Assembly (NCBI GenBank): GCA_018714505.1
Contig: DVNI01000103.1
Location: forward strand, 1 to 49,941
DNA length: 49,941 bases
Reading direction: 5' to 3'
Source: Candidatus Avacidaminococcus intestinavium
Lineage (GTDB): Bacteria; Bacillota; Negativicutes; Acidaminococcales; Acidaminococcaceae
Shown here piece after piece: positions 7,607-11,149 of the stretch; the stretch's first letter is position 1, and each line of letters begins with the position of its first letter. Below the pieces are notes generated by a model, which saw only the letters and a program-made list of their open reading frames with translations, made no database searches and was not told where the DNA came from. The position numbers and the translations under genes were made by a program.

Positions 7607-9457
7607 TCACCTCGCTTCGCCGGTGATTACAAAGGTGCTTTTGAAATCAGCTATTGCATTCTTCAAAGCCTCTTCAGTTGTTTCAGTAATTTTCTTTTCT
7701 GTACGAATAGAGTCACCTAGTTCTGGAGCATTTGCAGCAAGATATGCTAGCAAGCCTTTTTCAAAACGAGTTACATCATGTACAGGAACATCATCAATAT
7801 AGCCCTTAGCTGCCGCATAGAGTGACATTACTTGTTTCTCTACCGGTAGTGGTGCATATTGACCTTGTTTCAAGATTTCTGTCATGCGAGCACCACGATC
7901 AAGTTGTGCTTTTGTCGCTTTATCAAGATCGGAACCAAATTGAGCAAAAGCTGCTAATTCACGGTATTGTGCCAAGTCTAGGCGCAAAGTACCAGCAACA
8001 GATTTCATTGCTTTAATTTGAGCGGAACCACCTACACGGGATACGGAAAGACCAACGTTAATCGCTGGACGAATACCAGAATAGAATAATTCACTTTCCA
8101 GATAAATTTGACCATCTGTAATGGAAATAACGTTTGTTGGGATATAACCACCAACGTCACCAGCCAATGTTTCAATAATCGGCAGAGCCGTAATTGAACC
8201 ACCGCCAGCTTCTGCATTACGTCTAGCTGCACGTTCAAGCAAACGAGAGTGTAAGTAGAATACGTCACCTGGATATGCTTCACGACCTGGTGGACGGCGA
8301 AGCAACAAGCTCATTGCACGATATGCAACAGCATGTTTCGACAAGTCATCATATACACAAAGAACGTCTTTTGCTTGATCCATAAAGAACTCACCAATAG
8401 TTACACCAGTATAAGGTGCTAAGTATTGAAGAGGAGCACTGTCTGCTGCTGTCGCTGCCACAATAATAGTGTAGCTAAGCGCACCGTGCTGTTCAAGCGT
8501 ACGAGCAATACGAGCTATCGTTGATGTTTTTTGTCCGATAGCAACATAAATACAAATAACGCCTAAACCTTTTTGATTTAAGATAGTGTCAATTGCAACT
8601 GCAGTTTTACCTGTACCACGGTCACCGATAATAAGTTCACGTTGTCCACGGCCAATTGGCACCAAAGCATCAATTGCTTTAATACCAGTTTGCAAAGGAA
8701 CATCTACTGATTGACGATCAGCGATGCCCGGAGCCGGAGCTTCAATGCAGCGCATTGCTTCATGTTTAATTTCACCTTTACCATCAAGAGGTTGTCCAAG
8801 AGAGTTAACAATACGTCCAAGCATTGCGTCACCAACTGGTACTTCCATGATACGACCGGTGCGGCGTACGACGTCGCCTTCTTTAATGAGTGTTTCTCCA
8901 CCCATCAAAACAATACCAACTTCGTCAGCCTTTAAGTTCTGTACCATGCCTCTAACGCCATTCGGAAGCTCGACTAATTCGCCCGCCATAACACCATGCA
9001 TACCACTTACGGTAGCAATACCATCGCCGACTTTTTCAATTATACCGACTTCTTCCAAATTAACGTCCATTTTGTAATCTTCAACTTTTTTAGTAAGGGC
9101 CTCGGCAATACCTGCCGGTTTCTCAAGAGATTGACCTGCAACTTCGACCTTTCCCATTTCTCCGCCAACTTTTTCTAGTTGACGTTTTGTGCTGGCATCA
9201 AATACTTTATCGCCAATCTTGACGATAATGCCGCCGATAATGGTGGGATCTACGCTTGCTTCTAACTCAACCTTTTTACCCAACTTTTCAGCGAGAATTA
9301 CGGAAACAGATTCATATTCAGATACAGCAAGATCTTTAGCAGTAGTAACTAGTACTGAAACGATTTCTTTATCAGCGATAAAGGTAAGCTCTTTAGGGTC
9401 AAACGTCATCGCCGACAAATTGTCGCTAATCAAAGAAAATTTTTCGTTTTTTTCCAT
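7607..9457 (-). CDS. atpA: ATP synthase alpha subunit with N-terminal delta-subunit C-terminal segment (fusion)
   Basis: This 616-residue protein is about 110 longer than an ordinary alpha subunit (about 503). From roughly residue 115 it is a normal alpha: [15 protein letters not shown], the beta-barrel motif [10 protein letters not shown], the P-loop GDRGTGKTA (278-286) and [11 protein letters not shown]. Residues about 30-97 match the C-terminal part of delta (AtpH): [41 protein letters not shown]. The frame is continuous from a single ATG at 9457 with a GGAGGTGAT ribosome site. No separate atpH exists between atpF and this gene, and the six-helix N-terminal delta domain is not encoded here. 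Normally delta joins b to the tip of alpha; here the linkage would be covalent. The alpha part is certain; the delta match is by motif. Confidence 0.93.
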
Positions 9458-9583
9458 ACTGTATCAATCACCTCCGCATTACCCCAAAGCTTTAAAACTT
9501 CAGGTATATTTGTAAAACAAAAATCAACATAAATAACTATAAATCACATATCCTGATACTTTACTGACTGAAACGCTGAAGAA

Positions 9584-10069
9584 TCAACGTTTATTCAAAA
9601 CATCATCAGCAATATCGGCAACCATCTTTTGATCTCCTGTAGAGTTCAATTTTTGGTTAACAATCTTCCCTGCTATCAAAGTGCTTAATTTGATAACTTC
9701 AGATCTGATATCCAACAGTGCCTGTTGTTTCTCCTGTTCAATACGTTCTTTTGCGTTAGCCATCATGGCTTCCTGTTCCACACGCGCCTGCTCTACAAGT
9801 TCATCATGAAGATTCTGCGCAATTTGATTAGCTTTATTAACAATGTCGGTCGCTTCTTGCCGTGCGCCGGCTAATTGCTCTGCATACTGCTGTTTCAAAG
9901 CTTCTGCATCCAATCTACTTTGCTCAGCGGAATCCAAATCGTTAATAATTTTATTACGACGGTCATCCATTGCTTGCAACAACGGTTTATATGCGAATTT
10001 CGCAAGTATAAACAAAAGAACTAAGAAATTCAGGATCTGCGCAATAAGTGTTGCATTAATATCTACCAA
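9584..10069 (-). CDS. atpF: ATP synthase Fo b subunit
   Basis: Peripheral-stalk subunit of 161 residues: one N-terminal membrane helix (about 8-26, LIAQILNFLVLLFILAKFAY) followed by a long charged helix that dimerises and reaches F1. Length is normal, so it is not a b-delta fusion of the mycobacterial kind. It is followed by 126 bases without any delta-like coding before the delta-alpha gene. Its C-terminus (VADIADDVLNK) would have to contact the fused delta segment. Confidence 0.95.
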   Translation of the reverse strand: MVDINATLIAQILNFLVLLFILAKFAYKPLLQAMDDRRNKIINDLDSAEQSRLDAEALKQQYAEQLAGARQEATDIVNKANQIAQNLHDELVEQARVEQEAMMANAKERIEQEKQQALLDIRSEVIKLSTLIAGKIVNQKLNSTGDQKMVADIADDVLNKR

Positions 10070-10114: not shown

Positions 10115-10366
10115 TTAAATGAAGGGATTAGCAAAGACAAGCACGATAGCGATAACAGCAGAAATAATAGGAATAGACTCAACAAGACCGATAGCAATAA
10201 GCATATTTACTTGGAAAGTAGAAGCTGCTTCTGGTTGACGAGCCATACATTCTAAAGCTTTAGTTGCAACAGCGGCATCACCTTTCGTAGCACCTAGAGA
10301 TGCACCTACTGCGATAATAGCAGAAGCAAATACTGAAGCGGTAACAATAATAGCGTTTTCTGTCAT
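10115..10366 (-). CDS. atpE: ATP synthase Fo c subunit (rotor ring)
   Basis: An 83-residue two-helix hairpin forming the ion-carrying ring. Start placed at the ATG at 10366 because AAAGGA lies about 11 bases upstream; an ATG at 10378 directly abuts that site. The loop ARQPEA (42-47) is conserved. The ion-binding carboxylate is Glu63, followed by Ser64 (LVESIP), and Asp30 sits at the position of Gln32 of Na+-type rings (KGDAAVATKALE). Glu-Ser is typical of Na+ rings, but the Pro28 and Gln32 equivalents are absent, so ion specificity is unresolved. Confidence 0.95.
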   Translation of the reverse strand: MTENAIIVTASVFASAIIAVGASLGATKGDAAVATKALECMARQPEAASTFQVNMLIAIGLVESIPIISAVIAIVLVFANPFI

Positions 10367-10450
10367 TTTAAAATTCATCCTTTCGACTTCGAAAATTTTT
10401 CAAATTATTTAAATTTTTAATTTGAACTAAAATAAATATGAAACTTCTTT

Positions 10451-11149
10451 TTAATGATGTGTTCTAAAGACCGGCGCAATAGCCGTCATCGTTAGCATTG
10501 TAAAAATAAAGGCCTGCAAAAATCCTACAATCAAGCTGAAACCAACCCATAAATCAGGAATTACCCACGGTGCCAGCATGTAAAGAACAATCAATAATAT
10601 CTCACCAGCCAAAATGTTACCAAAAAGACGCAAGGCCATCGTAAGTGGTTTTGATAATTCTTCCAAAATGTTTAGCGGTAAGAATAAGAATGATGGCTGA
10701 ATAAAATGTTTAAAATAGCCAAGTCCATTTTTCAATACACCAATGGTATAAACCGTAAGTGAAACAGTTATAGCCATTCCTAATGTGACATTAATGTCAT
10801 TGGTTGGTGACGTAAAATGAGCTCCCACTTGTGGTAAAAGGCCAATTTCATTACCGACAAATAAAAATAAAAACAAGGTAATAATGAACGGAGCCATTGT
10901 TCTGCGGCCTTCAATACCAATGTTGCTATCCATCAAACCATTTAACCAATCAATAAAGACTTCTACCACATTTTGTATACCAGAGGGAATGATTTTTGGA
11001 TTACGTGTCGCCGCGAAAACAATAATAGCAACAACTGCCATTGTGAGCCATGACATATACATGGTTTGCATGTTGATTACTACGCCATCAAATATTTCCG
11101 TTGCTCCATAATGAATTATTTCACCGCTGGATGCTTCAGCACTTCCCAT
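10451..11149 (-). CDS. atpB: ATP synthase Fo a subunit
   Basis: Stator membrane subunit of 232 residues with at least five hydrophobic helices. The essential arginine lies in ALRLFGNILAGE, facing the c-ring carboxylate; the final helix (FLQAFIFTMLTMTAIAPVF) has the conserved Gln. Normal for the family. It is preceded by atpI and followed by atpE. Confidence 0.96.
   Translation of the reverse strand: MGSAEASSGEIIHYGATEIFDGVVINMQTMYMSWLTMAVVAIIVFAATRNPKIIPSGIQNVVEVFIDWLNGLMDSNIGIEGRRTMAPFIITLFLFLFVGNEIGLLPQVGAHFTSPTNDINVTLGMAITVSLTVYTIGVLKNGLGYFKHFIQPSFLFLPLNILEELSKPLTMALRLFGNILAGEILLIVLYMLAPWVIPDLWVGFSLIVGFLQAFIFTMLTMTAIAPVFRTHH

Follow-up and report, generated by a model that had tools for sequence, protein, structure and literature searches.

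The ATP synthase operon studied here lacks the six-helix N-terminal domain (NTD) of subunit delta, while the C-terminal domain (CTD) of delta is fused in frame to the N-terminus of a complete alpha subunit. We propose that three CTDs, covalently anchored to alpha, take the place of the NTD clamp and that up to three b2 stalks can assemble on them, a reading that builds on gene layout and on analogy to an engineered enzyme and to which we assign a probability of about 0.7. Taken alone, the first part of this reading (covalent anchors instead of the clamp) is well supported by the same two lines of evidence. For a native enzyme with more than one stalk and more than one a-subunit, the analogy gives about even odds.

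The operon lies on the minus strand of the window, i.e., the whole stretch of 49,941 nucleotides that was analysed, in the order atpI-B-E-F-[deltaCTD-alpha fusion]-G-D-C. It thus holds genes for a, c, b, alpha, gamma, beta and epsilon in the operon order of an F-type ATP synthase. The following features are needed here:

10451..11149, minus strand: atpB, subunit a, the sole PF00119 match in the genome
9584..10069, minus strand: atpF, subunit b, 161 aa, PF00430
9458..9583, no strand assigned: gap of 126 bases between atpF and the fusion, without NTD coding or remnant according to an NTD-profile search of its translations
9471..9475, minus strand: ribosome-binding sequence GGAGG for the fusion, at a distance of 13 bases from the ATG
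7607..9457, minus strand: deltaCTD-alpha fusion gene, 616 aa, from domain calls, Foldseek and sequence alignment
9377..9457, minus strand: N1, aa 1-27, N-terminal helix, judging from relatives probably derived from a duplicate of the N-terminal helix of alpha that has since decayed
9152..9376, minus strand: delta CTD, aa 28-102, from Pfam and the structural model
9053..9121, minus strand: N2, aa 113-135, the original N-terminal helix of alpha with the residues that follow, kept in place
7607..9052, minus strand: alpha body, aa 136-616 plus stop (barrel, nucleotide-binding and C-terminal domains), from domain calls

With regard to the gap, the first-pass annotation had counted 126 bases between atpF and the fusion, which agrees with an atpF end at 9584 and a fusion start at 9457 (minus strand). 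Its description of atpF as normal in length holds for the near-normal overall size but not for the end of the protein, i.e., the last few residues are missing that form a short C-terminal tail (e.g., GGLPC) in the b subunits of sister families. This tail is absent from the b subunits of the window's family (Acidaminococcaceae, f1) in general, while in sister family f2 the last codons of b overlap the ATG of delta; a missing tail is what would be expected if the loss of delta trimmed the end of b. The atpF gene is a separate gene that matches PF00430 alone and does not encode a single b-delta chain of the mycobacterial type. A promoter and terminator scan of positions 9300-9750 gave nothing above shuffled sequences that was worth following. 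As a side observation, subunit c (10115-10378) carries E-S at the ion site, and sister families share much of this pattern. At the position that we take, from an assumed alignment, to be Q32 of Na+-type c subunits, the window has D and Phascolarctobacterium has N.

Within the fusion, aa 28-97 match the Pfam delta/OSCP profile PF00213, of whose 172 positions only 98-168 are covered. The three domains of alpha all follow. The layout is that of an alpha subunit with an NTD-less delta in front, and no protein in the window combines the six-helix NTD and the CTD of a complete delta/OSCP subunit. An AlphaFold model of the whole fusion reaches a modest mean pLDDT of 62, and the N-terminal region modelled alone a similarly modest 59. 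For the whole model, the first three PDB ranks of Foldseek are three chains of 9JC1, an engineered Bacillus PS3 FoF1, whose sequence aligns to aa 36-612 of the fusion. For the N-terminal region alone, delta/OSCP chains occupy ranks 1-40 and 9JC1 rank 41 among the top 41 rows. Based on these models, the CTD of the fusion keeps the delta fold.

What such a layout can do is best judged from PS3, as described in the parts of Ueno et al. 2025 (PMC12229609) that we draw on. There, one alpha N-terminus binds the delta CTD while two bind the NTD, and the NTD sits on the three-fold axis and limits the stalks to one; the authors conclude that it enforces the single stalk. PS3 engineered by deleting the NTD and fusing the CTD to alpha is functional and forms up to three stalks, with a and b about two-fold up by SDS-PAGE, an H+/ATP ratio of 5.8 compared to 3.0 and half the threshold pmf (PMC12229609). 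The same source states that a single a-subunit is present in every ATP synthase complex described to date.

Transferred to the natural fusion, the mechanism would be as follows. The NTD, normally on the three-fold axis where it binds the alpha N-termini, is lost, and the b-binding CTD would be part of every alpha chain, such that each F1 head would present three covalently held CTDs. A b2 dimer could then dock on one or more of them via the canonical CTD-b contact, i.e., the NTD clamp would no longer be needed. Without the symmetry-breaking NTD, up to three b2 stalks might assemble, each with an a-subunit, and the extra stalks and a-subunits would raise the ion/ATP ratio and allow ATP synthesis at low ion-motive force. 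That is, three anchors per F1 may lift the one-stalk limit. The idea of the first-pass annotation that the fusion may replace the clamp by a covalent link gains support from both the domain layout and the engineered PS3 enzyme (PMC12229609, parts consulted).

The strongest competing explanation accepts the anchors but not the additional stalks. Here, all three alphas would carry a CTD, but Fo geometry, expression or a steric limit would allow only one b2 and one a-subunit to assemble, and the fusion would do nothing beyond replacing the clamp. Sequence does not reveal stoichiometry, and the layout is equally compatible with a lone b2 that occupies one of the three CTDs; we consider this explanation a serious contender that falls somewhat short of an even chance. 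It agrees with a single atpB, atpF and atpE gene in each atp operon that was read, with the one a-subunit gene of the window genome and with the triple-stalk form of PS3 being a small minority of the cryo-EM particles (PMC12229609, parts consulted). On the other hand, gene number does not tell how many copies of a subunit a complex contains, and the same layout in PS3 did raise a and b and doubled H+/ATP.

A second alternative concerns the composition of the alpha pool. If proteolysis or hidden internal starts produced some plain alpha, about one CTD per F1 might remain and the canonical 3:1 ratio would be restored. Limited proteolysis could indeed free alpha from some CTDs, and the linker between CTD and alpha (aa 91-135) is modelled with pLDDT under 50. 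This linker zone, however, holds alpha's own N-terminal helix, and a start codon preceded by a Shine-Dalgarno (SD) match was found there in only 1 of 39 fusions, so there is no conserved internal ribosome-binding site. An internal start that yields a separate, un-fused alpha is unlikely given this count, and we regard the mixed pool as a whole as unlikely. Beyond the tested zone, a GTG with GGAG is seen in G002, G016, G071 and G072. Compared to a mixed pool, three fused CTDs per F1 head remain our preferred reading.

A third alternative is that the NTD is supplied by a diverged or unassembled gene elsewhere, or that an unrelated protein takes its place in the crown. A profile is blind to an unrelated replacement. 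Since the window genome (G000; 1.63 Mb, 138 contigs) is only 86% complete, the absence claim rests on the 59 genomes of the family. We searched the 63 genomes of the order with an NTD-only profile of 24 rows, built from 24 full-length deltas of relatives. At E<=0.001, none of the 59 family genomes gave a match; many of these are near-complete, and one is the closed chromosome of A. fermentans (G023). In the sister families f2-f4, each of the four genomes gave a match with E<=1.2e-33. Weak matches in four family genomes range from E 0.09 to 0.37; the one in the window genome (L056) falls into a 45-aa frame in a stretch with efflux-type genes and was rejected as an NTD. Within the window genome, the fusion is the only PF00213 match.

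The gaps between atpF and the fusion give the same picture. In three-frame translations of these gaps from 39 fusions, the window's included, the best E-value of the NTD profile was 1.2, compared to 1e-36 to 1e-40 for three positive controls. Two genomes (G014, G061) show longer PF00213 alignments that start at position 6 or 13 and contain internal stops. We rejected these as NTD remnants, given that the NTD-only profile found nothing in the gaps, and read them as extensions into upstream sequence. The earlier claims that the gap holds no delta-like coding and that the six-helix domain is missing from the operon are borne out, whereas the accompanying alternative of a domain encoded elsewhere is disfavoured: neither a stand-alone NTD gene nor any other NTD match at E<=0.001 was found in the genome at its 86% completeness, and the comparison with sister genomes separates the family from its neighbours. 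We consider an NTD from another source, or an unrelated protein in its place, very improbable.

With respect to the spread of the fusion, PF00213 is matched in 50 of the 59 family genomes, none of which has an intact full-length delta; 48 of the 50 show the C-terminal part of the profile alone, and the other two are the longer, stop-containing cases G014 and G061. In most family genomes, the fusion frame comprises about 590-650 aa. Five genomes have shorter frames (G017, G025, G071, G073, G082), which we attribute to frame breaks or to the ends of contigs; G073 and G082 showed the fusion in pieces. The nine genomes without a PF00213 match (G021, G027, G031, G069, G070, G075, G077, G080, G081) show no F-type alpha either, and seven of them have no match to the whole fusion at all. 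The matches of the remaining two (G077, G080) are only about 29% identical and resemble V/A-type ATPases. Judging from these gene sequences, the delta-alpha fusion is family-wide in Acidaminococcaceae. That the fusion is an artefact of assembly or annotation in a single metagenome bin, conceivable for a 138-contig genome, is already refuted: dozens of genomes in the family show the same architecture, among them Phascolarctobacterium faecium DSM 14760 and A. fermentans with its closed chromosome, and it has been reported in print (PMC12229609, parts consulted).

Two side observations were made during this survey. One genome (G032) carries two fusion operons on different contigs (L050, L051) with the same subunit match figures, which could reflect assembly or strain mixing. 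Furthermore, public metagenome-assembled genomes titled Acholeplasmataceae (L080, L082, L085) carry an Acidaminococcaceae-type operon; these titles look wrong.

A possible origin of the fusion is suggested by sister family f2. In its two operons (G037, G040), b is followed by a full delta with a frame of 197 aa, then by a gene of its own that encodes 110 aa, and finally by alpha. The 110-aa gene, which we call delta-prime, is located as follows:

L032:3005-3334: delta-prime, 110-aa gene, G037
L033:4316-4645: delta-prime, 110-aa gene, G040

Delta-prime consists of an alpha-like N-terminal helix segment followed by a delta CTD, and its end overlaps the start of alpha; by its sequence, it is possibly an extra stator subunit in f2. 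The plan of the family's fusion (N1 helix, CTD, N2, alpha body) matches this f2 order, run on into alpha. To compare the helices, we scored each segment against a profile of the canonical alpha N-terminal helix using shuffled sequences. N1 is significant (p<=0.05) in 30 of 41 cases (39 fusions and two delta-primes) and N2 in 36 of 39, while delta's own segment before the CTD is so in only 4 of 24. The N1 count refers to unadjusted p-values and to a helix-core register that was chosen after an earlier register had given 3/41 at the same threshold. N1 of the window is not significantly alpha-like (p 0.15), the same applies to several Acidaminococcus (e.g., G023 with p 0.07), and N1 is lost in G014. 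Thus, N1 probably goes back to a duplicated and since decayed N-terminal helix of alpha in most fusions, which is clear only in less diverged relatives.

We infer a two-step path. In an ancestor shared by f1 and f2, the segment [deltaCTD + first ~20 codons of alpha] would have been duplicated in tandem, which would have produced the order delta, alphaN-deltaCTD, alpha; later, in f1, the complete delta would have been lost and the small alphaN-deltaCTD gene would have run into alpha. One such duplication would explain the f2 order exactly. A 17-genome tree of a+c+b+gamma places f2 as sister to f1 (95/95). In a tree of the CTDs, fusions and delta-primes fall on one side, with support (94/76) below the mark of the tool, and a grouping of delta-prime with the full f2 delta is not rejected (AU p 0.5). 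The unfused f2 intermediate would mark a stepwise evolutionary route without losing the stalk at any step.

Outside the family, a search of 380 genomes of the class with aa 28-135 found an uninterrupted fusion also in G607 (L148) and G608 (L147), whose host family (f15, genus g317) appears to be Selenomonadaceae-like. Their b, a, c and gamma (gamma in G608 only) are closer to f1 sequences such as those of G024 and the window than to two other f15 genomes; b, e.g., is 62% identical to G024 compared to 33-38% for the latter. In the 17-genome tree, both are nested inside f1 beside G024 (99/97). The simplest reading of these sequences is that the operon was acquired by horizontal transfer. Two open-looking candidates (G223, G311) turned out to be ordinary separate genes on inspection, and no further uninterrupted fusion was found at E<=1e-9 when 398 genomes sampled from the phylum were searched. 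The fullest version of our reading, i.e., two or three native a-subunits on one c-ring, a single tandem duplication, a transitional f2 enzyme, operon transfer and an N1-CTD three-fold cap in place of the NTD, is tentative, and we would bet slightly against it holding in all its parts.

Concerning the energy context, A. fermentans relies on sodium motive force and the decarboxylation of succinate has a small energy yield (-24.4 kJ/mol standard, a figure for another organism), according to the literature excerpts consulted. An ATP synthase working at low force would suit such life. The beta subunit of the Na+ decarboxylase (PF03977) was rejected as a correlate of low-energy life: it is class-wide, with matches in 313 of 380 class genomes and in 51 of 59 within the family, but none in the window genome (86% complete), and is thus not discriminating. 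The NTD-less layout is encoded by the whole family including the cultured members A. fermentans and Phascolarctobacterium faecium, such that natural multi-stalk ATP synthesis at low ion-motive force would be directly testable.

Among the closest known systems, the A. fermentans operon has the same NTD-less delta-alpha fusion; the window represents another genus (g1 vs g12). The A. fermentans fusion and its NTD loss were already noted, with UniProt G4Q3K6 and A0A1I2C5T3 as natural cases (Ueno et al. 2025, PMC12229609), and the consulted parts of that paper neither survey the family nor mention an intermediate, an extra helix or a transfer. Nor did we see the f2 intermediate, the duplicated helix, a family survey or the transfer in the open-access literature, in which the f2 gene was not sought by name; the same literature yielded no biochemistry or structure of a native Acidaminococcaceae enzyme. 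While the fusion and the missing NTD are thus in print for the family, the evolutionary path appears new. The engineered PS3 enzyme (PDB 9JC1) resembles the window in that the delta NTD is removed and the CTD is fused N-terminally to alpha in the same order. It is man-made, whereas the natural fusions have the extra N1 before the CTD and a natural linker. The mycobacterial b-delta fusion (PDB 7NKD chain d) is a delta fusion on the stalk side, and its delta domain matches the CTD fold of the window. In that enzyme delta is fused to b, and presumably an NTD is kept, while in the window the delta CTD is joined to alpha and no NTD is left. Finally, the canonical F-ATP synthases of E. coli and PS3 share with the window the order and domains of a, c, b, alpha, gamma, beta and epsilon, but they have one delta with NTD and CTD per F1, where the layout of the window predicts three CTDs and no NTD.
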